From Candidatus Iainarchaeum sp. (GTDB lineage Archaea > Iainarchaeota > Iainarchaeia > Iainarchaeales > VGJJ01): a DNA stretch of 40,776 nucleotides. Every line of letters begins with the position of its first letter. Position 1 is the stretch's first letter. Below the pieces are notes generated by a model. The model saw nothing but the letters and a program-made list of their open reading frames with translations, searched no databases and had not been told where the DNA came from. Positions 14,459 to 39,532 of the stretch are shown here, piece by piece. The translations under genes were made by a program, and so were the position numbers. Location of the stretch: NCBI GenBank assembly GCA_016198125.1, contig JACQJG010000008.1:1-40776 (forward strand), in the 5' to 3' direction.

Positions 14459-14468
14459 GGCTTTCACC

Positions 14469-14870
14469 TTACCGTCCCCGCGGAGGATGGCGTATAAAAC
14501 GCTGCTGGGCCTGGTGGAGCATGTGCTGGCGCTCCTTCAACTCCATGGAATGCGCGCCCTCTTCTTCTTCCATTCCTGGAGCAGGCTGGCGCTGAAACGC
14601 CCCGGTAAAAAACAAGTCAACTAAAATGCCCCCAAACCCGAACATCAGCAGAATGTACAATCCATAAATGGGCAAAAACAACCGCCACAAGTCAAACAAC
14701 AAAAAGTATGCAAAGAGCGCCATGACAATGAGTTTGAGGTTCGGATTCTCAATGTGGTTGTTCACAAAACTGATGATGGTGAGCAGTACAAAAATCTTCA
14801 AAATAAGGTTTACGTCCGAGAGAAAATCCCAAAGCCCCAATAAAACGGTGAACGCATTCCATGCAAGCAT
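14469..14870 (-). CDS. Small membrane protein with charged C-terminal tail
   Basis: A protein of 133 residues with three to four hydrophobic segments before about residue 95, followed by a charged, Gln/His/Arg-rich tail (MEEEEGAHSMELKERQ...). An upstream in-frame ATG exists at 14882, but the TATA box at 14893-14900 (TATTTAAA on the minus strand) is only 14 bases from it; the ATG at 14870 falls exactly where a leaderless transcript would begin, so I use that. First gene of its operon. No family recognised. Confidence 0.65.
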   Translation of the reverse strand: MLAWNAFTVLLGLWDFLSDVNLILKIFVLLTIISFVNNHIENPNLKLIVMALFAYFLLFDLWRLFLPIYGLYILLMFGFGGILVDLFFTGAFQRQPAPGMEEEEGAHSMELKERQHMLHQAQQRFIRHPPRGR

Positions 14871-14892
14871 GAGTGTATGCATGCATTTCCCC

Positions 14893-16114: not shown

Positions 16115-19100
16115 CTAGATGCAGGATTTTCCTGCTTCAAGTGCCTCTGTTTCCGCGTGAATGCTTGTCTTGGCGGTCTGCTTGTAAATGGTTTGGGGGT
16201 TCCAAAAGAAGCGCACGTGCACGCCGCTGTCTGAAATGCACACCTGCTTGTTGGCCACCAAATCAAACACGTCCTGCAGGGAGTCTACCTGCGTGCTGAA
16301 ACTGTTGTACGTCATCGTGCTAATGCCCTGCAAAGACACTAACTGGGCATAATTTGCTGAATCCGGGGTCAAAAAATGCAGGTACGCAGATTCTCCCTGG
16401 AGGCTGGCGCTTGAAGTGGGAGGCGAATAAATGACGGTGCGCAGGTACGCGTTTCCCTTCTTCGTGGCCTGCTGCCAGTCCACTCCATACAAGTACTCGT
16501 AATTGTTGATTTGGTCGTTGGGCGTTGCCTCGCGGTCAGGCGTTTGATTGAACGCCTGGGTTATTGGAACACCGTCAAAGTTGTTGCACACCCCAGCACC
16601 ATCCCAGTATGTAAACGTGCTTCCGGTTTCAACAGGAATGCCGCCTTCCAAGGCATAATAAAACGCGCTGAAAGGGTCTTTGGTAATGTCATGCGATACC
16701 CTGGCCATTACAGGCGTGGCAAGCGATGGCGAGAACACAAGTTTCTTTTCATTGTTGGCGCCAGCGTCTGCGCTGACTTCCAGTAAGTTTCCGCGCGTGG
16801 AAGGAATGGAATTGAGCTTGCGCAAATCCGATACAACTTCCGTTTGCACGTTCACAAGCGGGGTTGAGTTTGTGCTCGTCCATGTTTTTGCAAGCGTGTC
16901 ATCAAGCTTGATTTCATTGTCCTCATTGGAAAACCCAACTCCATAGCCAATGCGTTCAAGTGTAGACCCCTTCAACCCCACGTTCCCATTTAAAGGCAAA
17001 TTGTAAAAAGGCGAGTTTGGCACGGCATCATCAATGTGGTAGAACACCACGCTGATAAGCGCGTTAACCCCTTTGCCTGCAGTGAACAAATTCCACGTGT
17101 CGTTGAAATAAATTTCCAAGTCCACCCTGTACTTTCCGGCGGCCGGAAGCGTGGGGCTGTTCACGTATTTCTGCGTGAACAACAGGTTCTGGTCTGGGCC
17201 GTAATAGGATGAAAACATTTCAGTGCCCGCCAAATTATAATACCAGGTTGGAGTGTCTGCAAAAGCCACTTTCGTGTAATACTCCCTGAAATCGTTTTCA
17301 AAGTCCACGCTGTACCCATCGTGGATGAGCCGTGCATCAAAGTGCAGGAGATCATCCAATGCTTTTACGTTGGGCACGCCAGGGGGCCATGCAATGCTGG
17401 TGTCAGTTACTTTGCTTCCAAACACAGGGTCTGTGGGGTCAATCCACTGGTTGATTCCATACGCGCCTGCATAAAAGGCCGTGGTAAGAGGAGACTTGCA
17501 CGTTGAATTCCCTGAATTATCTTCCACGCTTTGATTTGAGAATATAATATGGGTTGCCCCGGTGTTTACAGCGCTTGTGGTATCAGAGTCAAGGCTCAGC
17601 CCAATGTCATACGCGGCTGGAACGCTAAGGCCTGAGAACGTGCATGAAAGGGTTGTACTGGTATTGGCATCCACGCTTCCTTCCTTGGTGCAGGGCCCTG
17701 GAACACTGGCTCCGCTGGTTTGCGCGGAAAGAGACGCGTTCAACGCAACAGACTGGGTTGAAGGCGTATTGTTTTGAATGACTGCATTAAACGTTACTGC
17801 CGAAGGTCCTGTGAACTGGTAGGATATTTCCTGCATGCCCAGGGTGTCAGGCGCCACGGAAAAGGACGTGCTTCCACTGCCTGCCCCGCTGGCAGCACTT
17901 GAAGGGCATGAAAAGGCGTGGTCGTTGGCGGCAAGGAACTCATTGAAAAGCTGCAGGCGTTTCATCAGCATGATGTTGAATTGGGTTGCGTCGCAGTATA
18001 TTGCATCAGGGTTTTTTGCGTCGCATGAATTCCATTGAATGCCGCTTTCTTCTTTCCAACTCCAGTTGAACGCAACCCGGGGAAGCGCGCCTTCTCCTGC
18101 TTTTCCAAGCAGGGCGCCGCTTGCGCACGCAATCGTGTCAAACGATGTAGGCGGAATGGATTGTGCGGGTTCCTGTGTTTTGAACATGGCATGGAATTTC
18201 TCGTTGCGCGTGGTAATCTCTTCCCCGCAGCTCTCTCCAATATTGTAGGGCCCAAAGTCTGAACCCTCGCAGGTTGCCTGGGCCTGACCGCTGTGCGTGG
18301 GGTCTCCGTGAATATGTTCTTTCGCGGTAAGCGTTACCACTCCATACAGGGGCGTGGGGTCTGCGTAATCCGTTTTTTTGTTGAACACAAGTCCAACGAA
18401 TTGAAGGGCGTTGTTTTGCGTGCCTTCAGCGGCTGCCCCCTGGTTGACAGAAATATTGGCCACATCCGTGTTCCATTTTCCCCCAACGTGGTTTTTCACG
18501 TTGTTGGATAACCCTACAGAAATTGCATCCACCGGCAATGACTCCTTTTTCTGGCCGCCTGCAAGATTGATAATATAATCCGGAAGCGTTCGGGTGTAGG
18601 TTTCCAGGCACGGGTCCTCAGAATCACCCAAGAGAAAGTATACAATTATTCCAACGCCCAATCCAATCAACCAGCACGCCGGGCACCATGAGGTCGTGGT
18701 CGTGAGCGCAATAAAAGCGCCTTTTCCGGCAAGCAGGGACGCAATCCCCCCCACAGCAACGCCTGCCGCAGTCCCAATGGCCGCATTTTCAAGCGTGTCA
18801 TCCTCTGCCATGGCCTCGCCCCAATCACATACACTGGCAGTGACTTCCACGGCTTCTGTGAACAGCGCATTGGTTACCGTGGTAGAATCCGAATCGTCTT
18901 TCTTGTACAACGTGAATTCATACCGGTCCCAGGAAAACGCGTACTTTTTGGGGTCCGGAGGCACCATGGTTTTAATCAACGCAATTTGGTGGAAGGAGGT
19001 TCCAGGGGCTTTGGCTCTAACTGTAATCCCATACACTCCTGGGAGCGTGCTGCCTTCGCGTGAAACCTTTACTTTTTTGGATTCTTTTTTGACGTTGTTC

Positions 19101-23203: not shown

Positions 23204-23254
23204 TCATTCACCCGAACGCGTTGGCACGAAATGGGTTAATGAAGGGTTTACGGG

Positions 23255-23262
23255 TATTTAAA
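23255..23262 (-). promoter_or_regulatory. TATA box of giant gene 1
   Basis: TATTTAAA on the minus strand, predicting a transcript start near 23232 and a leader of about 29 nt, longer than for most genes here. The leader carries GGGTGA before the ATG, so this gene may use Shine-Dalgarno initiation. The rest of the 23204-23397 gap holds only a short GC-rich hairpin near 23301-23317. Confidence 0.5.
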
Positions 23263-23397
23263 CGTATACGCGCGTGCACGCGGGGCATTGCAAGTAAAGG
23301 GGGGAGGCGCCCCTCCGAAACATGCAGCCTGTACGTGGCCATTCAGCGCATTGTGCACGGGTTGAAAATAGGCCGGTGAAGGGCCCCTGGTTTTGAA

Positions 23398-24078
23398 TCA
23401 TGCCATTTCAAGCACGGCCTGCTGGTGTTTTTCAAAAACCTTTTCGTCAATGTGCCCGTACACTCCTTGGAGTCCGTCCTTGAACGATTTTGACGACACT
23501 TTTTCTTTCACGCGTTCAAACCGGTTCCTCAAATCGCATCGGATTGAAATTTCGTTTTGAACCCATTTTTTATCCTTCAGGTTTGGGGCGAGCATGAAAA
23601 TGTCGCGGATGTCCGTTGAACGGGCGCTGATAAACTTCATGACAAACAGCGCGTCAAGGTCAATGATTCGGATCGTTAACTCTTCCATAATGGTTTTCCC
23701 CTTCAACAACCTCATTTTTGAATGGTCAAAAATCCAATCGAAGGCAAACACCATGCCTGTTTGCCGGTCTAAAACGCCGCCTATGAGAATGTCCATGCTG
23801 ACGTTAAAATGGTTTTCCAGTTCTTTTTCAAACCGTTCAAAGTTGGCATAAGGGGAAGGCGTTTTTGGAATTTCTTTGCGCGAATACCCGCGTTCTGCCA
23901 AAAAAGAACCCACTGCACGGGCCTTGCTTTTGTCTTGGACAGCCACGTCGCAGTCCACGGAGAAACGCGGAAGGGTATAGGCGTTCACGGCATACCCTCC
24001 AATAACCACAAATGAATGGCCTTTAAGGGCGCGAAGCGTTTCAAATATTTCCTTTTCCCTAATCTGCAACGCGTCCAT
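23398..24078 (-). CDS. abiEii-like: AbiEii-like nucleotidyltransferase toxin
   Basis: This 226-residue protein belongs to the nucleotidyltransferase superfamily. GGYAVNAY (27-34) is the NTP-binding turn and D42/D44 in SVDCDV are the metal-binding carboxylates; D96 (SMDILIGG) is a candidate third. In type IV toxin-antitoxin systems such AbiEii proteins block growth, and related toxins of this class modify tRNA. It starts inside the end of the AbiEi-like gene (20-base overlap), the standard two-gene order with the antitoxin first. The pair sits between two giant paralogues, which suggests insertion into, or stabilisation of, that locus. Confidence 0.82.
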   Translation of the reverse strand: MDALQIREKEIFETLRALKGHSFVVIGGYAVNAYTLPRFSVDCDVAVQDKSKARAVGSFLAERGYSRKEIPKTPSPYANFERFEKELENHFNVSMDILIGGVLDRQTGMVFAFDWIFDHSKMRLLKGKTIMEELTIRIIDLDALFVMKFISARSTDIRDIFMLAPNLKDKKWVQNEISIRCDLRNRFERVKEKVSSKSFKDGLQGVYGHIDEKVFEKHQQAVLEMA

Positions 24079-24661
24079 ATTTTTTCCTCATGTAGCGGTA
24101 GGCGTAGGAGTAAATGTCATTGGACCGGGCGTGTTTCATGGCCTCTTTTAAGCCTTCCACTTTAAACCCCTGTTTTTCAATGGCCTTCACGTTTTTCACG
24201 GGAATAAAAATGACATATTCTCCAACCGTGGAACCTTTGTCCACATAGTTGGGTATGCCCCGCCGGTTGAAAAAGTTTTTCCAGTACGCCAAATCTTTTT
24301 TCAACACTTTAATAAAATAGGGGGATTTTTCAATTCCACGCTGAACATATGCAAAATCCGACCAAATTTCAATTGCGGACAAACCGGTGAATGCATATTC
24401 TTTTTTTGCTTCTTTCATGATTTCCGGAACCCTGAACGCCAACGCCTTGGCCACAATTTCCCCGGGCTTTACGCATACATAGGTGTTATGGGGTTGTTTT
24501 TGAATCCACCCTGAATGCACCAACAGGGAAAATATCTTTTTCCGCATGCTCGGGCCCACCATCCAATCCAATTCCGCCTGCTTGAAGCGGCCGGCCGTGC
24601 CATGTTTCAAGAACAACAAGGCGTATGCCCTAAACCCGAAAGAGGGGATCCCCATAGTCAT
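24059..24661 (-). CDS. abiEi-like: AbiEi-like antitoxin/repressor
   Basis: This 200-residue protein has an N-terminal winged helix (about 1-75, with RFKQAELDWMV and MRKKIFSLLVHSGWI) and a C-terminal alpha/beta domain with FTGLSAIEIWSDF and STVGEYVIFIP. This is the arrangement of AbiEi antitoxins, which bind promoter inverted repeats to repress their own operon while the C-terminal domain provides antitoxicity. The toxin gene overlaps its end by 20 bases. A TATA box at 24683-24691 is about 26 bases from the ATG at 24661, so the mRNA is probably leaderless, and an inverted repeat lies between them. A second ATG two codons in, at 24655, is also possible. Confidence 0.8.
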   Translation of the reverse strand: MTMGIPSFGFRAYALLFLKHGTAGRFKQAELDWMVGPSMRKKIFSLLVHSGWIQKQPHNTYVCVKPGEIVAKALAFRVPEIMKEAKKEYAFTGLSAIEIWSDFAYVQRGIEKSPYFIKVLKKDLAYWKNFFNRRGIPNYVDKGSTVGEYVIFIPVKNVKAIEKQGFKVEGLKEAMKHARSNDIYSYAYRYMRKKYGRVAD

Positions 24662-24664
24662 AAC

Positions 24665-24683
24665 AGTTACTTAATGGGTAACT
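24665..24683 (-). promoter_or_regulatory. Putative AbiEi operator (AGTTAC-N7-GTAACT)
   Basis: A perfect 6-base inverted repeat, AGTTAC and GTAACT separated by 7 bases, lies between the TATA box (24683-24691) and the antitoxin ATG at 24661. A protein bound here would block transcription initiation. AbiEi proteins are known to repress through inverted repeats in their promoters, so this is the likely autoregulation site. Confidence 0.6.
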
Positions 24684-24733
24684 TTTATAAACAGGGGGTT
24701 CGTGGGGGGCTTGTTCGGCGGCTTTTGAGGCAT

Positions 24734-27700
24734 TCACCCGGTGGGCAACGGCCCCATGCACGTTTGGCCTTGAATGAACGTGGCTTCCTCCAACTCCATG
24801 CTCGTGCCTCCAATGCCTTTTTGCAGGGCTTCAGGGTTCCAAAACACTTCAAAGGCGGTGCCGTCATCAAGTACGCATGCGGATTGTTTTTTCACCATGT
24901 CAAACAGGGCTTGAACCGAAGTGACCTGCGCGCTTTCATTGTCGTGGGCCAGCCCGCTGATTCCATTCAATGCCGCTCCGGAGTTAAAGGACGCGGAATT
25001 GGGGGTGAGGAATTTTACACTGATTCCTTCATCCGCGTTGGCTTTAATGGAATGGCCTTCCTGGGGGGGCGTGTACACAACGCTTTTTACATACGCCGTT
25101 CCTTTTTGCTGGACGCTTGGAAAGCGCAGGGCATAGGAATACTCCCAGTTGTTTTTCACGTCATCCACAGTGGCAGGCGTGTCAGGCGTGTTGTGGAATG
25201 CGTTTTTCAGGAGCTGGCCGTCAAAGTTAAAACACGCCTTTCCCACCCCTTCCCAGTACGTATAATGCGCACCCGGCGCCTCCAATTCCTCTCCTTTAAA
25301 GGACATGTACGCCGCACTGAACGGCTTTTCCTCGTTGCGCGAAACCTGCATGAGCAGGGGCGTTGCAGTGGTGGGGGAAAAGGAAAGCTCGTACACCTGG
25401 TTGTTTACTGGATTTCCTTTCAATTCAAACAGCGTGCCGCGCTTGGTTGGAAGCTGGTTCAGCGATTCAAAGTCTCTTACCCATGTAGCAGTGACTGTTG
25501 ACGACAAGTCAGTTGAAGGAGACGAGAACAGTTTTACCTCATTCTTTTCGTCTATTTTGAACGAATCGCCTTTCAAGTCGAAAATGGTTCCATAGCCTTC
25601 CCGGTTCAACAGGTTTTCGTTGGTCAAGCCCACGCTTCCATCCAATGGAAAGTAATACCACAACGAATTGGGGCTTGGCAGTTTCTTGTGGGACAATGAA
25701 ACAACGATGACCGCGTTGGGCTTGTCTTCATCAAAAAAGTCCCATTTTTTCTTGTCGAATAGGATTTTTGTTTCCACTTCATACGTTCCAGGCTCGTCCA
25801 ATATTACGTTGCTGTTGAACCTGCGTTTGATTAGTATGTGCCCGTTTTCATCATAATATGCGTCAAACGAAGGCCCCCCGGCTTGATTGTAGAACCAGGT
25901 AGGGGTGTCTGCGAATGCTTTTTTCGTGTAATACTCTTTAAAGTCTTCGTGGAAATCCGGGCTGAACCCGTCTTTCATGAGTTTTGCATCAAAGTACAGC
26001 AGGTTGTTCAACGCCTTGATGTGTGGAATGTCAGGCGTCCACACCACTCCTGCCTGGGTTACATATTCGCCAAAGTCCTCGTTTTCCTTGTCAATCCAAT
26101 AATCAATGGCCGGATACCCTTTCACGATGGCCGTGCTGTAGGACTTGTCGCATTCTCCTTCGAATGCATTCTTTGCTTTTTTCATGGAAAATGACAGGGT
26201 AAACGCGGTTACGCCAGAGAAGAGGGTAGGACTGGAAGAAAGGCTTATTTGAGCCACATAGGTTCCCGGCCCCTCCAAACCAGAAAACGGGCATGAAAAT
26301 GAAAACTCTCCATTCCCGTCCACCAACGTTTCCTTTATGCACGGACTTGGAATGTTAGCTTCAGGGTTTTGGTTTTTAAGCGAAACCGCGTACAAGACTT
26401 TTTGGGTTTCACTGGTCTTGTTTTTTACATTTACGGTAATAGTGGCCGTACTTCCAGGCGAGAACCCAATGCCTGCTCCTTTCATGGCCACAGTGTTGGG
26501 AAGCACGGTGAACGTTTGCCCCCCGCCTTTTTTGAAGTCTACAGTTTCCTTGTCTTCCGGGCATGAAAACGTGTTGTCATTGGCTTCCAGAAACGCGTTG
26601 AAGAATTGCATGCGTTTCATCAACATGATGTTGAATTGGGTTGCGTCGCAGTATATTGCATTCGGGTTTTTTGCGTCGCATGAATTCCATTGAATGCCGC
26701 TTTCTTCCTTCCAACTCCAATTAAACGCAATTTTTGGCAGTACATTGGGGCCTGTGACTCCCTGCACGCCATTCTTTACGCATGCAAACCCTTCCAACGG
26801 GTTTTGGAAGTCAGGCAAGGGTTTTGTTTGCAGGCGGACGTGGAATTTTTCCACGCGCGTCACATCCTCTGCAGGAGAGCACTCTCCTTCATCGCTTTCG
26901 GGGCCAATACGGTACCGGCCAAACGTCCCAGTCTTGCATGTAACCGCCGCATCCCCGTCGTGTTCGGGGTCTCCGTGAATGTGCTCCGTGAATTTGAGCG
27001 AGGCCGTGGCATACGCTGGCATATCTGAATGCAATCCGGTTTTATTGTAAAAGCTCACCCCTGCACGCTCGCGCAATTTCTTCTTTTCCCCTTCGGCTAC
27101 ATCATGAACATTGCTTTCATTCACGTCCCAAACCGCATAAAAATCACTCTTCGCGTTGCCTGACAGCCCCACGGCAATGGCATCCGGTGGAAGTTTTTCC
27201 CTGTTCTTTCCACCGGAAAGCAGGGTAATGTAATCAGGCAGGGTGTCAGTGAACATGATGGCGCAGGGGTCAACGTCGCCTCCCCCACCTCCACCAAACA
27301 GGCTAAAAAGGAATGCGAGAATTGCGAGTATAAGACCAAACCAACCGAAAAAAACGAGCACTGCATCGGCGCTCATGCCAATGACGGCTCCAACGGCTTG
27401 AGCTGCTCCGGCAATTAATTCTGAAATCGCTGTAGGTCCAAAGCTTCCGCCAAGAACAACACTTGTAGGGGTTGTAAAACCGCCAATGGTCCCCCCGGCA
27501 AAAACATCGACTGCACTAAAAAATACCATGGTGGCATTGAATGCCACGTCTCCCCAGCCACCCTCCAAGTCCTCATCGTCCCCTGCCTCCGCGGATTTCT
27601 GCCAGCTACACAAGTCGGATGTAACCGCAATGTCTTCCAGCACGCGGCGGTTGGTTGCGCGGATTGAATCCCTTGCATTGGCACTGTACAATTGAAGGGA

Positions 27701-30700
27701 ATACTTGTCCAATGCAAGGAAGTAATGGCGGGGTTCCTTGAACGTAGCGCGCATTTCAAGGTTGGCAGGCACTTGCGCGCTTGGACTTGAAACTCTGAGC
27801 GTAACCCCATACGTTCCGGGAATGGTTTTTCCCTGAATGGGGCCTACTTCTATTTTTTGCACGCCTTTAAGGTTTTGCACGGTTTGCGGGGAAACGTGAA
27901 TTTCATCGGTTGTGCCGCCCCGGCAATTGCTGTTTCCAGGTTCCTTGCAGATTTCAATGGTCACAGGCTCCGGGCAGGCAGTAGTGTCAATGGAAAACGA
28001 CTTGGAAACCCATTTTTCATTGGTCTTATTCCAGTCCACTACAATTCCTGGAACAGGCAGGGGGTTCATGCGCACGCACTTGGCAAGAATGTTGGTGGTA
28101 ATGGAAGCACTGAACGCATCCCACACTACGGTGTCATCAGGGGTGCGCGCCTCAAATCGTACTTCGAATTGCGCGGGGTCAAAGGACTCCCATTCAAAAG
28201 GCGCATACGTGATGCGCATCTTGTAGGGGGTTTCAGTTGTACTGGCAGGGTTGAAGTATTCCAGTTCATCCAACAGGGAAACGCCTTGGGGAGTCAAATT
28301 GGATTTTACTTTCTTTCCGGTTGGCGTTTCTATTTCCACGTCCACGTACCCTTTGATGGCCCCCTTCCACGTGACTTTTCCGCGCAGGTCTTCAAGCGTT
28401 ACCCCGCTTCCCTGCACGTTGCACTGATTGGATAATAACACTTTTGCCTGCACGGTTTGCGCGTTGACTTGGGCATGCCAGGGGTGGGACGCGTCGGCCT
28501 CTCCGGCAATCACCAACGGCTGGGTTTCGCATCCCCCAAATGAAACAAGGTTGAATTCCAGCGGAACAAGCACGTGCACGGCGCCCGGAGACTGCGTGGA
28601 CTGGAATTCAAAAAGCGCAAGCGCGTGCAGGGGTTCTTTCAGAGGGTCTGCCTGGGAAGATGCAACGGCCTGTATGTTCATCGTTTTAACTTCTTTGGGC
28701 CCCAGGGAAAACGTGCTTATGTATTGTTGCAGGAACGCCTGCATTTTTTCCACATCCAATGCGTTCAATCCTTCTCCAACGATTTGGGCCTGAACAAGCA
28801 CAAGGGAATCCTGGGAATTATTTTTGAAGTACAGGGGCCTTTCCTGGGAAAAACCAGGCACTGCATTTACCTGAAAGGAAAGCGTTTTTGGGTCAGTGGA
28901 TACAGTGCTGCCCTGCACGGGGACTTTAACAAGAAGGCTTGTCTGGCCTCCTGAAATAGCCTGGAACGCCCAATACGTGTTGGGCCCTGCTTCATCCAAT
29001 TCAATGGAAACCTCGCCATCTTCCTGGGTGGAAGCCAGCGCAAAAAACACAAAGTCCCCTGTCCCGGAAACCTTGTACACGCTCACCTGGGCGTTGGAAA
29101 CCGGAGAGCCCTGCGCATTTGCCACGCGTGCAACAACTTTTACAGGAGTAAACGCCTGTACTATTCCCGGTTCCACGCTCAAGTCCAATGCAGCGCTTTC
29201 AACTCCAATCAGGGTCCACGAGCCAGAAATCTTTGTGTCGCCTTCCTCCAAAACATTCAGCTCTAATTTTTCTGTTTCAGTGTCCAGCGCCTCCAGCTTC
29301 ACTTCCAGCAACGCGCTTTCATTGGGCAGCATTTTTCCAATGGAGAGCATGCCTCCTTCAACAGCTGGAATGGCCTGCGTGCTTATGTTTTCCTCTTCCA
29401 CTACGGTGCCACCCGGCAAGGTGAGGGCATACCCGGTTACATGGAAGGCCGTGGACAAAATATTGGAAAACCCCGCGTTGAGTCCAACGGCATCCAAGGA
29501 CTTGCCCGTTTTGTTTGTCACCACCCACGAAAAGGAATGGGGTTCATACACGTTTAATTCAAAGGGCTGAAAATTCAACGTGTTGCCGCTTGCGTCTTTG
29601 ACAAAAGGACCGCTCACGCACAAGGCATTCACGCACGATTCGTTTTGCCCGATAAAGTAAATGCTTTGAATGGCCTGCGCGTACAAGGCTTCTTTTCCCT
29701 GCACGTTTTCATTCAAACCCAATTCAGGGTCGGATGGAAAGCGGTGCCATTTCCCGTCTGAAAGCACGCCCCAGGTTCTGTACCTGAGTTCGAGTTTTGC
29801 ATTCAGGGGCGCGCCTTCTGCTACGCGCACAAGAACGCGCACGGCGTGAATTTCATTGGACGCGCTGTCCCACCGCGCTTCACTCCACACAGCGCCATCG
29901 CCCGCAAGGTTTAGCTCATCAATGCTTGTTCCAGCGGGCGGAGAAAAAGTAGAGCCTTTCAGAATGCCTGCCAGCGGCGCGTTCACTTCTTCCACGGATG
30001 CCACTTTCAACGCCAAAGGGTTTTCCACGCGCACATGCATTCCAGGGCCCTGGAATTGGGACTGGCTTGGAAACCGTGCCTCAAACTCCGCCCAATACGA
30101 TTGCCCGGGCCACAATGCCAATGCAATACTTCCATTCAATTCCTTCCAGCCCACGAACACGATTTCAGGTTCAAATCCCTGCACGAGTTTCATGGACGCC
30201 TGGATTTCAACACTTTTTGAGTCCGCGAGTTCTGCAAAAGGAGAGATCCAATCCGAATAGCCCTGCGCGTGTACGCGGAAAAAAACCTTTTCATCCAACT
30301 TGAATGACTTTTCAGCAGTACCCTTGGCGGATGTTTTAACCCCGCATCCTGCCGCAGGACAGGTGGAACCTGCCAGCGTGAAAAACGTGACCTCGGCATC
30401 TTTAACCGGCAGTCCTTTTGAGTCTGCCACTTTCACGCGCAGTATTCCGGTTCCTGCTTTAAGCGTAATGGGAAACACGGTTTCCTGTTGGGCGTTTACT
30501 TGCATGACGTCAGAAATTCCATTGTACGGGGCTTTCACAGCCCTGAGCTTGTACTGCCCGGGTTTCAGGCTCTTGAAAGACGCTTCGCCCACTGCATTGG
30601 TGGGCTTTGAAGGGTACTGGAAGAGCACTGTTCCAATGGGCGAAAGAACGCTCACCACAGCGTTTTCCATTCCAATTCCCTGCGTGTCCTTTACTTGCGC

Positions 30701-31909
30701 AATGGCTCTTCCAAGGTTTTCCTCTGAATATTTTTCCATGAGCAGTTCAATTGTTTTTTCCCCGCTTACAATGCCGGTGTCTGCTTCCGCGTACACGTAT
30801 TCATCATGAATGCCGTATACTGTGAAAGGCCCCTGCTTGGACAATGCAAAAACGGCTTCCCCATTTTCATTCGTTGTTTTGTCTGTCATTTCCTGGTTCA
30901 GTGCAGGATCCACTAATTTGACCAGCACGCCTGGAATTTCCTGGAAAGATTCTTTGTCCAGCGCGCGCACGCGCACGCTTCCAACAGGCTGCAGGGACAT
31001 GACCAGTTCAACACTGGACTCCTGGAATGCACTCACGTTGAACGCGGCTGAAAGCGCGTTTCCAAGCACGTTCAAAGAATCATACGCGCTTGCATGGTAT
31101 GCTCCGACACTGATTTCGTTGAAAACAATGAATCCCTGGGCGTTGGAAATGCCTTCTGCGCGCAGCCCGTTTTCAGCGGAAAACAATTGAACATGAATGC
31201 CTTCCAACTGCACTCCATCCGCGCTGCGCACGTCAACACGTACGCTTCCAGTCTTTGTTTTAATGCGGGACAGGAAAATCACGTGCGAGGCCTGGGTTAC
31301 CTGAAACCCCTGCAATTCCTCAAATCCAGGCGCATACACGTTGACACTCAAAATGCCGCACAACCCGGGTTTTGGAAGCACGGCTTCTCCTTTTTGCGCG
31401 TGCACGTCTTCCAAGGCAAGGGAAAGGCCTGAACAATGGAGTTGAATGGTGACTGGAACGCCTTCCAGTTTTTCTCCCAGGTCATCCACAAACGTGAGCA
31501 CGGGGCCTGAAAATGCAACAGGCCTGGGCTTTAACACAAACGTGCGCATCAACCCAGGCTTGGACGCCTTCCAAATAGTGGAATAGGGTTCAAATGCGGG
31601 TTCGCTTACCTCCACCTGCACTTCCAATGGAAAGCCCATATTTGAAAGTTCTACAATTCCATCCGCGTTCGTGGAATGGCGTTGGGTTTCGCCCTTGAAT
31701 GAAAGCAAGACCTCTATTCCCGGAAGAGGCGTTGAATCCTCGTCTACAAAAACAAGGCGTGCGGTTCCAGGGGAAGGCCCCACAGTTCCGCTCAGCGCAG
31801 TCCACGCCCACCAACCGGCTAAAAGAATAAGGGCTATGCCGCCAAGGGCCAGCAGGGGATGGTCTTGAACCCACGCCCATGGAGATGGTGATAAAGCCCT
31901 GCGCGCCAT
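24734..31909 (-). CDS. Giant N-anchored surface protein 2 (2391 aa)
   Basis: This is a paralogue of giant proteins 1 and 3. The N-terminus is short and basic, lacking the LKDLY...VPSF segment of its paralogues, and one TM lies at about 18-39. Six transthyretin-like beta domains follow (about 48-575), with another at about 960-1045. C1434 and C1549 bracket a 114-residue insert with several hydrophobic stretches (AGAAQAVGAVIGM, FFGWFGLILAILAFLFSLF) ending in a Gly run. The region after it, TLPDYI..L.GG....LP.DAI.VGLS, is shared with giant 1. Its IYCDATQF block is at about 1731-1772, and the C-terminus has VFWNPE. TATA (TATATAA) is at 31953-31959, giving a leader of about 21 nt. Function unknown; probably a surface protein. 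Confidence 0.85.
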   Translation of the reverse strand: MARRALSPSPWAWVQDHPLLALGGIALILLAGWWAWTALSGTVGPSPGTARLVFVDEDSTPLPGIEVLLSFKGETQRHSTNADGIVELSNMGFPLEVQVEVSEPAFEPYSTIWKASKPGLMRTFVLKPRPVAFSGPVLTFVDDLGEKLEGVPVTIQLHCSGLSLALEDVHAQKGEAVLPKPGLCGILSVNVYAPGFEELQGFQVTQASHVIFLSRIKTKTGSVRVDVRSADGVQLEGIHVQLFSAENGLRAEGISNAQGFIVFNEISVGAYHASAYDSLNVLGNALSAAFNVSAFQESSVELVMSLQPVGSVRVRALDKESFQEIPGVLVKLVDPALNQEMTDKTTNENGEAVFALSKQGPFTVYGIHDEYVYAEADTGIVSGEKTIELLMEKYSEENLGRAIAQVKDTQGIGMENAVVSVLSPIGTVLFQYPSKPTNAVGEASFKSLKPGQYKLRAVKAPYNGISDVMQVNAQQETVFPITLKAGTGILRVKVADSKGLPVKDAEVTFFTLAGSTCPAAGCGVKTSAKGTAEKSFKLDEKVFFRVHAQGYSDWISPFAELADSKSVEIQASMKLVQGFEPEIVFVGWKELNGSIALALWPGQSYWAEFEARFPSQSQFQGPGMHVRVENPLALKVASVEEVNAPLAGILKGSTFSPPAGTSIDELNLAGDGAVWSEARWDSASNEIHAVRVLVRVAEGAPLNAKLELRYRTWGVLSDGKWHRFPSDPELGLNENVQGKEALYAQAIQSIYFIGQNESCVNALCVSGPFVKDASGNTLNFQPFELNVYEPHSFSWVVTNKTGKSLDAVGLNAGFSNILSTAFHVTGYALTLPGGTVVEEENISTQAIPAVEGGMLSIGKMLPNESALLEVKLEALDTETEKLELNVLEEGDTKISGSWTLIGVESAALDLSVEPGIVQAFTPVKVVARVANAQGSPVSNAQVSVYKVSGTGDFVFFALASTQEDGEVSIELDEAGPNTYWAFQAISGGQTSLLVKVPVQGSTVSTDPKTLSFQVNAVPGFSQERPLYFKNNSQDSLVLVQAQIVGEGLNALDVEKMQAFLQQYISTFSLGPKEVKTMNIQAVASSQADPLKEPLHALALFEFQSTQSPGAVHVLVPLEFNLVSFGGCETQPLVIAGEADASHPWHAQVNAQTVQAKVLLSNQCNVQGSGVTLEDLRGKVTWKGAIKGYVDVEIETPTGKKVKSNLTPQGVSLLDELEYFNPASTTETPYKMRITYAPFEWESFDPAQFEVRFEARTPDDTVVWDAFSASITTNILAKCVRMNPLPVPGIVVDWNKTNEKWVSKSFSIDTTACPEPVTIEICKEPGNSNCRGGTTDEIHVSPQTVQNLKGVQKIEVGPIQGKTIPGTYGVTLRVSSPSAQVPANLEMRATFKEPRHYFLALDKYSLQLYSANARDSIRATNRRVLEDIAVTSDLCSWQKSAEAGDDEDLEGGWGDVAFNATMVFFSAVDVFAGGTIGGFTTPTSVVLGGSFGPTAISELIAGAAQAVGAVIGMSADAVLVFFGWFGLILAILAFLFSLFGGGGGGDVDPCAIMFTDTLPDYITLLSGGKNREKLPPDAIAVGLSGNAKSDFYAVWDVNESNVHDVAEGEKKKLRERAGVSFYNKTGLHSDMPAYATASLKFTEHIHGDPEHDGDAAVTCKTGTFGRYRIGPESDEGECSPAEDVTRVEKFHVRLQTKPLPDFQNPLEGFACVKNGVQGVTGPNVLPKIAFNWSWKEESGIQWNSCDAKNPNAIYCDATQFNIMLMKRMQFFNAFLEANDNTFSCPEDKETVDFKKGGGQTFTVLPNTVAMKGAGIGFSPGSTATITVNVKNKTSETQKVLYAVSLKNQNPEANIPSPCIKETLVDGNGEFSFSCPFSGLEGPGTYVAQISLSSSPTLFSGVTAFTLSFSMKKAKNAFEGECDKSYSTAIVKGYPAIDYWIDKENEDFGEYVTQAGVVWTPDIPHIKALNNLLYFDAKLMKDGFSPDFHEDFKEYYTKKAFADTPTWFYNQAGGPSFDAYYDENGHILIKRRFNSNVILDEPGTYEVETKILFDKKKWDFFDEDKPNAVIVVSLSHKKLPSPNSLWYYFPLDGSVGLTNENLLNREGYGTIFDLKGDSFKIDEKNEVKLFSSPSTDLSSTVTATWVRDFESLNQLPTKRGTLFELKGNPVNNQVYELSFSPTTATPLLMQVSRNEEKPFSAAYMSFKGEELEAPGAHYTYWEGVGKACFNFDGQLLKNAFHNTPDTPATVDDVKNNWEYSYALRFPSVQQKGTAYVKSVVYTPPQEGHSIKANADEGISVKFLTPNSASFNSGAALNGISGLAHDNESAQVTSVQALFDMVKKQSACVLDDGTAFEVFWNPEALQKGIGGTSMELEEATFIQGQTCMGPLPTG
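26612..26730 (-). repeat. 119-bp near-identical block shared with giant gene 1
   Basis: Partner of 17957-18075: the same length, with about six mismatches by eye. It is far more similar than the surrounding coding sequence of the two paralogues. Confidence 0.8.
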
Positions 31910-31990
31910 GCAAAAACCCGGATTGGATTGGCTACGAAGAAGCTGAATCCTCTATATAAGGGTTGTGTGGTTGCGCTGGACTTTTACCAA

Positions 31991-34900
31991 TTAGGATTTG
32001 ATTTGAATGCATGCCTTTTCTGCGGCAAGCTCCTGGTCTTCCAGTGCGTTGAGGACTTCCTTGGGGTTCCAAAAGAATTCCACCTTGCTTCCAGTTCCGC
32101 TTACGCACACATGGTTTTCTGCCACTAAATCCAGAATGTCTTCAATGGATTGAATGGTGTTCGTGGGACTGTTCAATGGAACCGTGTCCACGCCATTCAA
32201 GGGCAGCGTGCTTCCTGCAAGGGTCTTTCCAACGAATTCCATGTCCTCGCGGAACGCAGTCTTGTTAATGGAACTCAAAGATTCCTGGGGTGTGTAAAAG
32301 ATGCTCTTTAAGTACACGCTTCCCGTGTTAACGTTGTTGGTTTTCCCGCACCATTCAAATCCATATGCAATGTTGGACTGCTGTCCAACCACGGCACAGG
32401 CAGTATTCAACCCGCTTACATCATACTTTCCATTGAACGTGTCCTGTACGGGTTTGTCATCAAAGGCCTTGCAGTTGATTCCAACGCCCCACCACGGGTT
32501 TCCTGCGGCGCCCAAATAGCTTTGCGACGTGTCATTGTTAATTCCAACACTGTAAAAGCCCCATGCCTCTCCCTGGAACGTTTTGTTCGTGGTTTTCATA
32601 ATCACAGGCGTTGCAAAGCTGGGCGCAAACTTCAGGCTTGCTCCCCCGGAAGTCTTGGAAATCGTCAAAACGTTTCCGCGTTCAAGGGAATTCAATACTT
32701 TGAACGCGTTTTCCTTGGACGCTTTCACGGTTGCCACGGGCGTAGAACCTGGAATTTCAATGGTCTCCACCAATTGGTCTGCGTCCTGGTTCAAGGAAAC
32801 CTTTTCCCCTTCAAAGTTGACTCCGTATCCCACGCGTCCCTGCCCGTCATCTGTGCCAATCAACCCATTAAAGGGCAGGGAATAAAAGGGGGATGGAATG
32901 TCTTCCGTGGCCGATTTTTCAAGTTTAACGTTTACCTTTGCCACCGGAGTGTCGCTTTTGTAGAACAGCATGTCCTGGTCTTCAAAGTTAATGTCAATGG
33001 TCGCACTGTACAAACCCCCTCCAGGCAATAAATAACCGGTAGTTGGGGGGTCGCCAAACTTCCTGCTTACCACCCACAAATTGGGGTTGGAAAAGTAATT
33101 GTGCAGGCCTGTCTTTTCGTCCAAGTAATAGGGAGGCGCATCAAAGAATGATTTTGTTTTCGCGAACCTGTCAAAGTCCTGGTAAAAGTCCGGAGCATAA
33201 CGGTCCTGGATGAGGTACGCGTTAAAATTAACCAGGTCAAAGATTTCCTCTTCGCTGGAAATCCCTGAAGGCAATGCAATCGGGTTTCCTGCATCCTTGG
33301 TGGCATTCACAAAGTCTTTCAAACGCTCGGTAGTGAACGGCGCGCACTGTTTGAGGAGGCCTGCCTGGCCTATGACAAAAAGCGTTGAAATGGAATCGCT
33401 TGCTTTTGAAGAGTTATAACAGGCCTCACATTCCTGGGGGGCAATGGAAGCCTTCAAAGAATACGCTCCATCATCCAATGCAGTAAATGCACAGCCCACG
33501 CTGGCCTTGTTTGAACCTGTAGGAACGTCCACTGTTTTCGTGCACGTCTTTATTGCATTTGAATCCAAGCTTATTACAGTCACCGTGAGCTGGGACTTGT
33601 TCTTTGCAGGCGCATTGTTTTTGATTACAATCACTGCATTAAGGTCCTTTCCTTCCTTGTCTGCGTGTATGGATTCAATGCCAATATCATCTTGCGGGAT
33701 TTGCTGGGACTCAAAACCTGCCAGCACGCCTTGTACAGGGCATTCAAAGGGCGCGTTCAATTCAATGAATTGTTGAAGGACGTGCACTTTTTGCAGTAAT
33801 TCAATGCTGAACTGGGTTGCATCGCAGTAAATGAACGCGTCCTTTCCCTGCGCGTCTTTTGTAGTCTCATCGCATGCACGCATGCCAACGCCTGAAAACG
33901 TCCAGTCAAACTTTATTTTGGGCAGCACCAAAGGCCCTGTGGCTCCTGTTTTGGCGCTGAACGTGTCGCATGCCAGTGCAATGGGCGGAATGACATCGCC
34001 TAGGATTTGCGTGGGGTCAATGGAATTGAATTGCACGTGGAAGTTGGCCTGCACACTGGTTTCATCCTCTTCTTCCAGGTCCTCTACCATGGGTTCCTCT
34101 TCATAACCTTTTTCATCGTACTGGTGCTGCACGCCGGTTGCTTTCACTACCTTGTACTTAATGCCTTCAAACCTGGACTTGTTTTTGAAGGTAAGGCCGT
34201 GAATCTCGGATTCTACAGGATTCTCGCTGGTGTTCTTTATTTTGGGTTCAAGCGCTGGCTTTCCTTCCACGTTCAATTCCACGTCCACATCCTTTTTCGT
34301 GGAAGTGCTTGTCTCCAAGAGCTTGACGTCCTTGATTTCCACATCAACGACTTTCAATTCAATGGTTTCACTTTCGTCCTGCGAATAGTAATCCACAAGC
34401 GTGGTCACAACGCCTGCCACCAGCCCATTAATAATGGGGTTCTTGCTTCCCGTTATAAGGCCGAGCACCGAGGGAACGATTCCAACCAAACTGCCGCCAA
34501 GACCTGCCTGGCCAAGGACCACCGCTGGTGTACCCTTACTTTTTTCGGGAATTTTTGAAATACTGCCATCACCGTTGATTTGGTAGGCGGGGGCCGGTTG
34601 GTCTTTTAGCATAATCAGTTCATCTGAGCCAAAAGTCCCAATGATGCTCCCACTGTCAATATCGAAAACATCTCCGCTTCCATCATCGCTTATCCTAAGA
34701 ACAACCGAGTCACCGTTAAACGTTGTCTTATAGCCGCTATCCAAACGTTCGTTTAAAAATGGAATAGGTTCGGGTGCTGCAGGGGGTTCTTCTTCATCCC
34801 CTCCGCCAAATAGGGTATCCCATGCGCCTGCCCAAAAGCCCTTGGGCTTCTCCCCAGATGTGAACACCAGTTGGCCTTTTGTTTTGTCATAGTTGACTTT

Positions 34901-37900
34901 TCCAATGTATTCCCCGGTGGTTGAATGGAATACTTCTCCGTCTTCATTGTACGTGGCAAAAACTACGCCATCAGCATTGGCAATGGAATTGTCTGTTCCA
35001 ATCGTTCCAATGGGTGAACCATCTGCGTTCAGCACGCCAAGGCCTTTTGCAGTTGATTGTCCAGGCGCGCCTGGCCCTAGGCCAGCACCAGTTTTAATCG
35101 CACCTTCCTTTCCTTGGCCGCCTTCCACACTCTCTGCAACGGTTTGCACGCCCGTTAATGTGCCTCCTTTAACGGCTTCTTCTTCAATGGGATTGCCTGC
35201 CCAGTTAATTCCAGGGGTGGCAATGTTTGCAATGGCGTTCAACCCGCCCACAATGACCGCGGCAATCAGCCCTGTTTTAATGCTTTCCCACCAGCTGCGC
35301 GGGTCAAATTCAGCCTCAATTACCTTGAAGTGGCAAAAATTGCTTAGCTCCGCAGTGTCAACGCCATCCGTTCCAATTTTAGGGTCGTCAAAAATGTCAA
35401 ATTCATACCGGTTCAGTTGAATGCATGCACCCGGGTCAAACACGCGCGCGCGCAGCACTTTTTCCTTGAACGCCTGCTTGATTTCCGCGCCCTTCACGCT
35501 TACTGTTATGGGGTACTGGCCCAGCTCCGTGTTGGTGCCTGCAAGCACTTCCACTTCCTTGGAATCCGAGGCTTTAAGGGTTAATTCTGTGGCGCTCAAA
35601 TCCAAATCCGATTTCAGTGTAAATTCAACGTCCTTGCCGCAGTCCTTGGTTTGAATGGTGAACTTGTCGCTTGCGCCTCTGTTCATTTGCAATAATTCCT
35701 TGGAATAGGAAATGCAGTCAAACAAATTCACCACGCCGATTTTGGCTTCAATGAAATCGGTAAGAACCTGGTCTTTTGTATCCAAAGGATTCACGCTTTC
35801 AAATACCACTTTGAAATCCGCGAGGCCCGCACTTCCCCCGGTGGGAGTGAAAACAAGTTTTGCATCCAATGCCTCCAACGGCGCAAGCGATTCTACGAGC
35901 AAAGAGGAAAACCCGGATTTTACAAGCGTTCCGGCCTTGATTTCCGGTTTGTCTGCGGAAGTGGCCAGCAACTTCAAATCACCGATTTCATTGCTGTTCC
36001 AAACGGCTTTCACGCGCACGTTCTTCAATCCCACAGGATTGTCTTTCACGGAACAATTGTTTTGAATCTTGAATTCCAGTGTAACATCCTTTCCTTCCGT
36101 GCCCGTTTCCCATTTGTTGGTGGAAAGGTTAAAGCAGCCCGGGTCATCCACTTCCGATGAAACGCCCAGCGAGAATGCAATGGGCACTGCAAACGCCCAT
36201 TCCTGGCCAAAGTTTTTTGCAGTAACTCCCAATTCCCCTTCCAAAGACGCATGGTCAAGCAATTGCCTGCCCAGCACGGTGGGAATGGTTTTCACGCTCA
36301 TTTTAAGCGTTTCATTGGGCTGCAGTATTTTTCCTTCAAATGCATGCAGCCAGTTGTTCATTTTTTCCTCATCCAATAATCCTTCAAAGTTTCCGCTCAC
36401 ATTCACCTGGCTTAATTCAAGCGCAAAACTGAGTTTGTTGGTCACTTCAAGGGAGTCTTCCACTTCCGATTCCGTTTTTACATTTATGCTAACGCCCAGT
36501 TTTTCCGGGTTGAACTCCAATACTTTGTCGGATACTTTCAGGGTTTGAGTGAACGTGTTATAGGAAGGGGATTCCACTTTCACAGTGATTTCCGTGCCAG
36601 GCAATTGGCCGGGCAGGATTAATTCCAGTTCGCCCAGCGCATTGGTTTTTCTGGATTCCAATACAATGCCATGCTTGTCCACCAGGCTTACAACTGCGTC
36701 CTTTAATTCAAGGTGCGTGGCGGCATCGGAAACCTTGAATTTTAGATTCAAAGGCACTCCTGAGGGATATGAGGAAGGCGTGATTTGAACGTCCAGGTTG
36801 TTGGCCGCGCTGATGGAAAACTCAATGTCCTTGGAGAACACCTGCTTGAAATCGGATACAAGCAAAAAGTTTACAATGGAATTCCCGGCGCTCTTGGTTT
36901 TAAAGAACAGCGTACCGGAAACCTTTTTGTTGGGGGAAAAGTTTCCAACATTCAAGGCAGGCAACTCAGATTCGTTGATGTCTGCTTCCAGTGAACCGGA
37001 TTCTGCGTTGAATATTTTGTAGTGCGTGAACAGAATGGAATCGTTGTTGCTCCTGATGCGCAGTTCTGCATGGTCATGGACAGCGCTTCCATTGTTAATC
37101 AGATTAAACGTGAGCTTGTAGTCCTTGAACACGTCTGCATTGTATGCCTGCACCAGGTCGTTCAAAATTCCATTCTTCACGTCCAAAATGCTTGCGTCAA
37201 AGCAAAATTCGATATCGCATAAAGTTGTAACGCCCAACTGGTAGTTTTCTTCCTTGGTGTTTGCGTACAATTCTTCCGTTACGCTTGTGTCTGCAGGGTC
37301 GCGTTCAATGCTCCCGTCATTCTTTTCCCCGCGGACTTTGTAGTTAACGCGCATCACGTCTTCCACGCTTGCAGTGTCGCGCACGCGTATTTTTGCTTCA
37401 ACTTCATAAACCCCATCCAGGGGTTTTTTCCACGTTACTTCCACCCACTTGGCTTCATCATTGGTAACGCTTTCCCCGTCTATTCCAAGCCCGTTGTTGG
37501 GGTCCCACGAGCTCCCCTTGAGAATGGAAGCCTTGGCCACATTCACGGATTGAATGAACAAGGGATCTTTTTCAACAATGGATTTGGTGCCTGTGCGCAC
37601 GTGCAAGGACGTTTCGTCGAATGCTTTTCCCTGGGGAATGCGCACCTGCCATTTCCCCGTGTATTCCTGGTTTTTTCCCACGGTTTTTGCAATTTTGTCC
37701 CCCACATACAGTCCAAGGAAGTCCACTTTGATGTCTCCCTGAATGAGTTTGGGCAGTAATTTGACGGTAAAAGTCTGCGTGGACAAAGGCACAATGGGTT
37801 TAATCACTGAAACATAGGGGGCCAGCGTGCTTCCCTGCTTGTCCACAATGACAAAAACACTCTTGTCTGCTTTGGACTTTTGATTGTTGGAAGGCAGTAC

Positions 37901-39532
37901 ATACTGCCCATTCGAATCCGTTAAATCCGCGCCCAACAGGGATTCATCGAAGGCGTTGTACACGCTGACCTTGGCGAATGCAACAGGGGCATTGTCTTTG
38001 TCCACTACGTTTACCACTACCACTCCATCCGGAATTTGCAGTTGAATCTTGTAAACCGTTTCAGCCGCGTTTTCAATGTCAAAGAACTGCGGTTCAGAGT
38101 ACGCGCTCAAACTTTCCTTGAATGCAAACGCCTTGTAATTCCCGTTTTGAACGCCTGGAAATGACGCAGTGCCGTTAATGTCAGTTAATTGCTCTGGATA
38201 AGGTGCAAGGAAATCAGAATCTGCATCGTATAAAACAACTTTTGCATTTGGAACCGGGTCCTCATCCTGGTCGCGCACCTCTACTTTCAATGTTCCGGCA
38301 TTGGTTCCAGTGAATTTTTCGAGTTCAAGAATTTTCAATGCATCCGAAGCAGTGAACGTTTTTTGCACGGCCAGGTACCCGGTTTTGCTTGCACTCACAA
38401 TGTAGGATTTTGTTTTGTCGCTTACAAACAATTCTACTATGGCATCCTTGGATGCCTGGGTTTCAATGGTGGTAAGGATTTGGCCCTGCTCGTTTTTCAG
38501 CCGTACAGTGGCCTTGTCCAGGGGTTTTTTTGAATCCTTTTCAAGGACCTGGACTTTGATGCTGCCCTCAATGTTTTTTTCAACGCCAATGGTAAGCTGC
38601 TTGTTTTCGCTTGCGCTTACTGAAATGTCTTCCAGTACGTTTCCATAAATTCCCTGGTCATCGTACACGTTTACCGTGTAATCCCCTGCCTTCACCTGGA
38701 ATACCACGGTCCCGTTTGCCCCGGTTTTTTTCTGCTCGTAGGGAATGCCGTACTGGAGCAGGTCAACGTTAATACCGTCCACCAGCTGGTTTTCCTGGTC
38801 TTTCACCACTACTGTGACACTGGCATTGGGGGTTTCATCTTCATCCAAGTAAATGGATTTGGTATCCTCATTTACCTCCAGCGAATCCACGTCCTGGAAG
38901 CCCTGTACTTTAACGCTTACAACAAGGCCGTTGCAGTTGGATGGAACAGTCACCGTTGCAATTCCTGTTGAAGTTGTAATGGGATTTGGAGGCGTGGCAT
39001 AGGAGTTTTTGCATGAAAAAGTGAGCGTTGCAGTTTCAGTGATGGGCTGGCCCACGCTGTTATACAAGCGGATGGTCTTCGTATTGGAATCAGGCTTCAA
39101 TGCAACAAGCTGAAGGGTTTTCACAAGGCTTTCATTCAGCGTGACCGGTTCCGTAAATGTTTCAAATCCTTCCGCTTCAATGGCAATTTCAATCACGCGT
39201 CCCTTAGGAAACACTTTCTCCACGCGGCCCAGCGCATCTGTGGTGAGCACGTAGCTTTGACCATTAACCGTGAGCTGCACAGGAATATTGGGAAGCGCGC
39301 TTGAATCCTCATCCACTACATTCAATGTGAGCTGGGCCTGTTCAGGTGCAAGTCCCCCCACCAATGCAAGAATGCCTCCTGCAATAAGGAGAAATGCAAG
39401 AATGATGACCAGGGCAAAACTTGGAACATGCCTGTCAATGGGGTCAACGATTTTGCCTAAATGGAATTTGTCCACGAAGTCATAGTACTTGTCTTCCAGG
39501 GAATGATACAAGTCTTTTAAGGCGTCGGCCAT
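31991..39532 (-). CDS. Giant N-anchored surface protein 3 (2513 aa)
   Basis: This is the largest paralogue. The N-terminal cytoplasmic segment (ALKDLYHSLEDKYYDFVDKFH, then VPSF) matches giant 1, with a TM at about 39-60. Six transthyretin-like beta domains lie at about 65-590 and another at about 920-990. At the insert position, only the first cysteine (C1400) is kept. The insert is much longer (to about 1716): a hydrophobic stretch (GLIAAVIVGGLNAIANIA), then beta-hairpin-like NADG/NEDG turns at about 1480-1665, then a Gly/Val-rich hydrophobic stretch at 1664-1716. The cysteine block (about 1871-1909) keeps IYCDATQF, and the C-terminus has FFWNPK. TATA (TATATATA) is near 39561-39568, with a leader of about 7 nt. 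Function unknown. Confidence 0.85.
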   Translation of the reverse strand: MADALKDLYHSLEDKYYDFVDKFHLGKIVDPIDRHVPSFALVIILAFLLIAGGILALVGGLAPEQAQLTLNVVDEDSSALPNIPVQLTVNGQSYVLTTDALGRVEKVFPKGRVIEIAIEAEGFETFTEPVTLNESLVKTLQLVALKPDSNTKTIRLYNSVGQPITETATLTFSCKNSYATPPNPITTSTGIATVTVPSNCNGLVVSVKVQGFQDVDSLEVNEDTKSIYLDEDETPNASVTVVVKDQENQLVDGINVDLLQYGIPYEQKKTGANGTVVFQVKAGDYTVNVYDDQGIYGNVLEDISVSASENKQLTIGVEKNIEGSIKVQVLEKDSKKPLDKATVRLKNEQGQILTTIETQASKDAIVELFVSDKTKSYIVSASKTGYLAVQKTFTASDALKILELEKFTGTNAGTLKVEVRDQDEDPVPNAKVVLYDADSDFLAPYPEQLTDINGTASFPGVQNGNYKAFAFKESLSAYSEPQFFDIENAAETVYKIQLQIPDGVVVVNVVDKDNAPVAFAKVSVYNAFDESLLGADLTDSNGQYVLPSNNQKSKADKSVFVIVDKQGSTLAPYVSVIKPIVPLSTQTFTVKLLPKLIQGDIKVDFLGLYVGDKIAKTVGKNQEYTGKWQVRIPQGKAFDETSLHVRTGTKSIVEKDPLFIQSVNVAKASILKGSSWDPNNGLGIDGESVTNDEAKWVEVTWKKPLDGVYEVEAKIRVRDTASVEDVMRVNYKVRGEKNDGSIERDPADTSVTEELYANTKEENYQLGVTTLCDIEFCFDASILDVKNGILNDLVQAYNADVFKDYKLTFNLINNGSAVHDHAELRIRSNNDSILFTHYKIFNAESGSLEADINESELPALNVGNFSPNKKVSGTLFFKTKSAGNSIVNFLLVSDFKQVFSKDIEFSISAANNLDVQITPSSYPSGVPLNLKFKVSDAATHLELKDAVVSLVDKHGIVLESRKTNALGELELILPGQLPGTEITVKVESPSYNTFTQTLKVSDKVLEFNPEKLGVSINVKTESEVEDSLEVTNKLSFALELSQVNVSGNFEGLLDEEKMNNWLHAFEGKILQPNETLKMSVKTIPTVLGRQLLDHASLEGELGVTAKNFGQEWAFAVPIAFSLGVSSEVDDPGCFNLSTNKWETGTEGKDVTLEFKIQNNCSVKDNPVGLKNVRVKAVWNSNEIGDLKLLATSADKPEIKAGTLVKSGFSSLLVESLAPLEALDAKLVFTPTGGSAGLADFKVVFESVNPLDTKDQVLTDFIEAKIGVVNLFDCISYSKELLQMNRGASDKFTIQTKDCGKDVEFTLKSDLDLSATELTLKASDSKEVEVLAGTNTELGQYPITVSVKGAEIKQAFKEKVLRARVFDPGACIQLNRYEFDIFDDPKIGTDGVDTAELSNFCHFKVIEAEFDPRSWWESIKTGLIAAVIVGGLNAIANIATPGINWAGNPIEEEAVKGGTLTGVQTVAESVEGGQGKEGAIKTGAGLGPGAPGQSTAKGLGVLNADGSPIGTIGTDNSIANADGVVFATYNEDGEVFHSTTGEYIGKVNYDKTKGQLVFTSGEKPKGFWAGAWDTLFGGGDEEEPPAAPEPIPFLNERLDSGYKTTFNGDSVVLRISDDGSGDVFDIDSGSIIGTFGSDELIMLKDQPAPAYQINGDGSISKIPEKSKGTPAVVLGQAGLGGSLVGIVPSVLGLITGSKNPIINGLVAGVVTTLVDYYSQDESETIELKVVDVEIKDVKLLETSTSTKKDVDVELNVEGKPALEPKIKNTSENPVESEIHGLTFKNKSRFEGIKYKVVKATGVQHQYDEKGYEEEPMVEDLEEEDETSVQANFHVQFNSIDPTQILGDVIPPIALACDTFSAKTGATGPLVLPKIKFDWTFSGVGMRACDETTKDAQGKDAFIYCDATQFSIELLQKVHVLQQFIELNAPFECPVQGVLAGFESQQIPQDDIGIESIHADKEGKDLNAVIVIKNNAPAKNKSQLTVTVISLDSNAIKTCTKTVDVPTGSNKASVGCAFTALDDGAYSLKASIAPQECEACYNSSKASDSISTLFVIGQAGLLKQCAPFTTERLKDFVNATKDAGNPIALPSGISSEEEIFDLVNFNAYLIQDRYAPDFYQDFDRFAKTKSFFDAPPYYLDEKTGLHNYFSNPNLWVVSRKFGDPPTTGYLLPGGGLYSATIDINFEDQDMLFYKSDTPVAKVNVKLEKSATEDIPSPFYSLPFNGLIGTDDGQGRVGYGVNFEGEKVSLNQDADQLVETIEIPGSTPVATVKASKENAFKVLNSLERGNVLTISKTSGGASLKFAPSFATPVIMKTTNKTFQGEAWGFYSVGINNDTSQSYLGAAGNPWWGVGINCKAFDDKPVQDTFNGKYDVSGLNTACAVVGQQSNIAYGFEWCGKTNNVNTGSVYLKSIFYTPQESLSSINKTAFREDMEFVGKTLAGSTLPLNGVDTVPLNSPTNTIQSIEDILDLVAENHVCVSGTGSKVEFFWNPKEVLNALEDQELAAEKACIQIKS

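Follow-up and report, generated by a model that had tools for sequence, protein, structure and literature searches.

Among the systems described to date, the proteins considered here come closest to the SPEARE giants of nanohaloarchaea (PMC10266531). The SPEAREs are giant membrane-anchored surface proteins of DPANN archaea with Ig-like domains, and a role at the host surface has been proposed for them (PMC10266531). The giants of Candidatus Iainarchaeota resemble them in being membrane-anchored DPANN proteins with tandem Ig-like/fibronectin-like extracellular domains, and a gene of the HerA/VirB4 superfamily lies nearby in both cases. Each SPEARE is a single protein of ~9000 aa that includes a VirB4/TraG-like ATPase domain (PMC10266531), whereas the Iainarchaeota giants are four paralogues of 2.1-3.4 kaa without an ATPase domain, and the HerA-fold protein encoded near them has no Walker A motif. 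The giant ORFs of Omnitrophota (PMC10066038) are comparable in the combination of giant proteins, reduced genomes, small cells and Tad pili implicated in attachment; however, these are bacterial, and the likeness noted here is one of description. Regarding peptidoglycan hydrolases, archaea lack peptidoglycan and some of them turn such enzymes on bacteria (PMC12352652); peptidoglycan-degrading DPANN were proposed earlier for Woesearchaeota (PMC9723730). The bacteria-killing hydrolases of archaea share amidase and glucosaminidase domains with some Iainarchaeota giants, but are modular enzymes, many of them secreted (PMC12352652), whereas the Iainarchaeota domains are found in a minority of lineages, at the end of a membrane-anchored giant encoded in a conserved cluster.

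Machines of the T4P superfamily (archaellum, Tad pilus, bindosome assembly) are a further point of comparison, given the linkage of the giants to a T2SSE-type ATPase, a T2SSF-like candidate platform protein and a pilin-like protein. To our knowledge, no described T4P-superfamily machine has giant membrane-anchored subunits. The literature searched, which comprised open-licence PMC papers, yielded no earlier description of the Iainarchaeota giants. The evidence presented below suggests a surface machine, not described before, with which the cells would touch or attack others. Our tentative reading, which we regard as quite possible, is that the giants are membrane-anchored subunits, four paralogues in all, of one conserved T4P-superfamily surface apparatus for contact with cells.

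The window, i.e., the whole 40,776-nucleotide stretch of DNA analyzed here, is an entire contig (C20) of an 846-kb assembly of Candidatus Iainarchaeum sp. that is 71% complete. It contains three uninterrupted minus-strand ORFs encoding proteins of 2362, 2391 and 2513 aa (16115-23203, 24734-31909 and 31991-39532, respectively), together with the following features.

31991..39532, minus strand: giant C, 2513 aa, membrane-anchored, placed in a tree of 56 giants and carrying IYCDATQF and FWNP
24734..31909, minus strand: second copy of giant D (D2), 2391 aa, in tree group D, with a hydrophobic insert
16115..23203, minus strand: first copy of giant D (D1), 2362 aa, in tree group D, with the canonical N-terminal segment
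20804..21436, minus strand: extracellular domain with the highest conservation in the giants, spanning D1 residues 590-800 and containing two invariant cysteines
16118..18136, minus strand: C-terminal module of D1 (residues 1690-2362), consisting of the IYCDATQF cysteine block, an Ig-like domain and a C-terminal part without a recognized fold
14469..14882, minus strand: small polytopic membrane protein (cluster c0), encoded after giant D in most arrays
14132..14467, minus strand: second small polytopic membrane protein, MNEKGNLLLI... (cluster c0)
13806..14060, minus strand: third small membrane protein, of uncertain membership in the system (cluster c0)
10700..12316, minus strand: HerA-fold protein without Walker A, a conserved neighbour

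An earlier note on this DNA, made from the sequence alone, had reported a tandem array of three giant homologous genes. The three ORFs are intact and all align with one another, D1 with D2 at 34% over nearly the full length (E=0) and D1 with C at about 30% in two blocks (best E=1e-147). The three genes thus stand, but their number is an accident of the contig end plus a duplication of D. The contig breaks off 1.2 kb upstream of C, before reaching B, and this is why the window contains no more than C and two copies of D; B and A are the genes that should follow at that point. Elsewhere in this 71%-complete assembly, no match to A, B or the pilin-like gene described below was found. The same genome (G000) encodes a fourth, divergent giant on contig C3 (L047:1972-8718), which is nearest to group C.

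In the tree of 56 giants, the proteins fall into four groups, A, B, C and D, which track position in the array and not the genome of origin; the 2513-aa protein of the window belongs to group C, and the 2391- and 2362-aa proteins to group D. The gene order A-B-C-D is fixed across relatives in one order of Candidatus Iainarchaeota (Diapherotrites; 20 families), and the giants are four ancient orthologous groups with a conserved array order. Of 53 relatives, 50 have the family, among them all 21 of the searched genomes of the order with at least 90% completeness and at most 5% contamination. When the domain at residues 590-800 was used as the query, 72 of the 87 genomes of the phylum matched; the order accounts for 75 of these genomes, and of the 12 outside it four matched, two of them marginally. 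The IYCDATQF pattern was also searched against 84,980 species genomes, in which D1 alone as the query gave nothing and an alignment of C and D gave relatives, mainly in bins labelled as Diapherotrites or in unlabelled archaeal bins; a few matching bins are labelled with other names. The system is present in the published complete genome of archaeon GW2011_AR10. The earlier view of a small-genome DPANN archaeon with surface-anchored giants was right, and the co-occurrence in relatives bears out its idea of a lineage-specific system. The array is not, however, a species-level expansion of one family but an order-wide set of four subunits in fixed order.

The near-universality of the family in the order keeps a structural envelope reading fitting. 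In this main rival explanation, the giants would make up the structural coat of the cell, with four long anchored proteins standing in for an S-layer or reinforcing it, and the T4P genes and hydrolases would be chance neighbours or coat-assembly helpers. The occurrence in every near-complete genome, the four co-conserved subunits, the long beta-domain stalks and the conserved cysteines all suit a coat, as does the archaeosortase-family gene adjoining A, which fits surface-protein processing. A dedicated ATPase, a pilin-like gene and hydrolase domains would be unexpected in a coat, and the giants match no S-layer family, so that we judge the explanation unlikely, although deserving of serious weight.

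The distribution of group D bears on a second alternative, in which the giants would be independent adhesins arising as tandem duplicates, with no pilus machine, and the conservation of their neighbours would have other causes, as seems to be the case for the HerA/PolB block. Repeated duplications of D (in the window, G001, G013, G015 and G021) speak for this explanation, and the HerA-like gene illustrates that proximity alone proves little. Yet A-D are orthologous groups in fixed order in many families and not a churning adhesin family; they have an N-terminal segment in common, and an ATPase gene and a pilin-like gene are linked to them. Independent adhesins are, on this evidence, improbable.

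The single N-terminal anchor read earlier from the window is present at about residue 46 in 55 of the 56 giants (residue 40 in C of the window), the sole exception being cut by a contig end. In most giants a conserved segment of ~37 residues precedes the anchor and is the most conserved stretch across A-D. D2 (2391 aa), whose N-terminus reads MARRALSPSPWAW, has the membrane anchor without this segment. No prepilin-type cleavage motif was seen before the anchor on inspection of the conserved segment; as judged from the sequence, the N-terminal anchor is no prepilin signal and the giants themselves are not pilins.

The N-terminal third of the window giants contains CarboxypepD_reg, SpaA and Big_1 domains (Pfam). 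Profile comparison of six consecutive segments within residues 60-600 found every pair to be homologous (72-99% probability); the six transthyretin-like domains proposed before are therefore supported both by Pfam and by all-pairs profile matches of the transthyretin/CarboxypepD_reg-like type. A seventh copy of this domain was detected at D1 925-1015, and D1 601-800 is a conserved domain distinct from the N-terminal repeats. A hydrophobic insert had been described at the same position in all three proteins. This holds for the D copies; most D-group giants have a strong insert at about D1 1515, but it is weak in C of the window and was not seen at the matching position in groups A and B. It is therefore a D-group trait, so that its candidacy as a family-wide feature was dropped. 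The cysteine block with IYCDATQF and the C-terminal FWNP module do occur in all three window giants, as the earlier note stated. The longest giants are two of G015: its giant C (L031:5980-15738, 3253 aa) has an extra part with fn3, and its giant A (L032:6303-16634, 3444 aa) has a cupredoxin-like domain besides its hydrolase domains.

The C-terminal module of C and D matched no family in Pfam and NCBIfam scans or in a PDB profile search. A structure model of the last 673 residues of D1, built from 33 sequences, has a mean pLDDT of 88.5. The best matches in a PDB fold search with this model were partial (TM-score by query 0.10-0.14) and limited to the Ig-like part, and thus most of the module has no recognized relative among solved structures. 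No curated S-layer family matched the window giants in Pfam or NCBIfam, and no VirB4/TraG-like ATPase domain was found in them (Pfam, NCBIfam) or in the second halves of the A giants. A match of the modules to a characterized enzyme or S-layer family, which the earlier note had regarded as contrary to its cell-surface reading, was thus not obtained in Pfam, NCBIfam or PDB. Around IYCDATQF, 40 of 43 residues and 33 codons are identical between D1 and D2, while elsewhere 43% of the identical residues have identical codons. Gene conversion between the two D copies is probable in this region (window 17941-18070 and 26597-26725, corresponding to D1 residues ~1712-1754 and their D2 counterparts).

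Regarding the machinery linked to the giants, a conserved gene between A and B encodes a protein of ~480-620 aa with a pilin-like N-terminus. This protein is present in 58 of the 75 genomes of the order and co-occurs with the giants (Fisher p=4e-4, a value confounded by completeness). A T2SSE/FlaI/TadA-type ATPase of ~760-780 aa is encoded upstream of A in divergent orientation, 2-15 kb from A in six of seven genomes; a crude estimate of the probability that this closeness is due to chance is 3e-9. The exception is G006, in which the ATPase gene is some 450 kb from giant A. Although each of the seven genomes has several T2SSE matches, the ATPase of the ~760-780-aa class is single-copy in each. 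A T2SSE-type ATPase had no match on the contig of the window. The neighbour of the ATPase is a candidate T2SSF-like platform protein (T2SSF match 5e-4, below the Pfam cut-off). In five arrays, an archaeosortase/exosortase-family gene precedes A, and the one member scanned passes the TIGR04178 cut-off. Small polytopic membrane proteins come after D and remain linked to the giants in G002 and G006 as well. The gene neighbourhood suggests a link between the giants and pilus machinery.

The same neighbourhood could be read as a competence-like pseudopilus for the uptake of DNA or another polymer, with the giants as its extracellular conduit. Such a reading could draw on the pilus-type ATPase linked to the giants and on the pilin-like N-terminus, the best match of which is to the competence minor pilins ComGF/ComGE. 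That match is weak, however, far below the cut-off and confined to the generic N-terminal helix, and no DNA-uptake protein was recognized in the cluster; we consider an uptake device very improbable.

Under the contact apparatus that we tentatively favour, the common N-terminal segment, being the most conserved part of A-D, suggests docking of all four giants to one shared membrane partner, and the linked ATPase and pilin-like protein suggest that this partner is a platform of the T4P superfamily. The four giants would assemble side by side on this pilus-type platform via the segment, and the dedicated ATPase would drive a short pseudopilus formed by the pilin-like protein. The length of the beta-domain arms (2000-3000 residues) suggests binding to surfaces, and these arms would bind a partner or prey cell. 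Such a machine would probably serve to contact neighbouring cells, bacteria included, and to take up material from them or attack them. Conservation and gene neighbourhood underlie the proposed docking and platform, and domain content the proposed binding to surfaces.

Bacterial targets are suggested by the domain content of giant A. The C-terminus of A carries Amidase_2 (1e-28) and a weak Glucosaminidase match in G015; NLPC_P60, Amidase_3 (9e-20) and Glucosaminidase in G017; and Glucosaminidase in G005. These are the only three genomes in which hydrolase domains on A were confirmed, and none belongs to the family of the window. AR10 and G015 each have another amidase/glucosaminidase gene just upstream of A. 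At loose thresholds, SLT was detected in 21 and Glucosaminidase in 14 of the 75 genomes of the order, mostly as separate ORFs. No peptidoglycan hydrolase domain was found by Pfam in C or D of the window, or in its own genome or family. The SLT-like tails that visual reading had suggested in giant A of G004 and of other genomes were not confirmed. Outside the giant family, G009 encodes a 2291-aa protein with Amidase_2 and SLT (L147:9796-16668).

The hydrolase domains on some A giants make a bacterium possible as the partner or target, and in some lineages the system may indeed be directed at bacteria, where giant A would locally open their peptidoglycan. The full picture, in which a new class of contact machine, a T4P-motor-driven complex of four anchored giants restricted to one archaeal phylum, lets ultra-small archaea seize bacteria and sometimes breach their walls, is rather unlikely as a whole. 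The physical interaction of DPANN archaea with other cells is a long-standing question, for which the giant system provides a concrete molecular candidate on the basis of four giants in fixed order in many families, a linked pilus-type motor gene and the enzymes directed at bacteria that some lineages have.

The HerA-like protein was considered as the motor of the machine and ruled out, as it lacks Walker A, occurs phylum-wide including in genomes without giants, and is separable from the giants. In 11 aligned homologues, no GxxGxGK[ST] is present at the expected place, where the consensus of 19 homologues reads VxGGxxxxRxH. The protein was found in 77 of the 87 genomes of the phylum, and in nine of the ten genomes of a family where giants are essentially missing. 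The HerA-like/PolB block is the next block after the small membrane proteins and is separated from the giants in G002 and G006. The HerA-like protein is probably not part of the giant system. With its Walker A lost throughout the order, the HerA-fold protein beside DNA polymerase B (10700-12316) is a conserved pseudo-ATPase.

Several other genes of the window were noted. Between the D copies, positions 23398-24661 contain an AbiEii-like nucleotidyltransferase gene (a weak match, below the cut-off) and a preceding gene of 200 aa, a pair that is possibly an AbiE-type toxin-antitoxin system. A ParE/YoeB-like toxin gene is located directly downstream of giant D (14999-15256). Finally, a tyrosine recombinase of the phage integrase family (3521-4792) lies beside a stretch of lower GC content (1-4000), and the two together possibly represent an integrated element.
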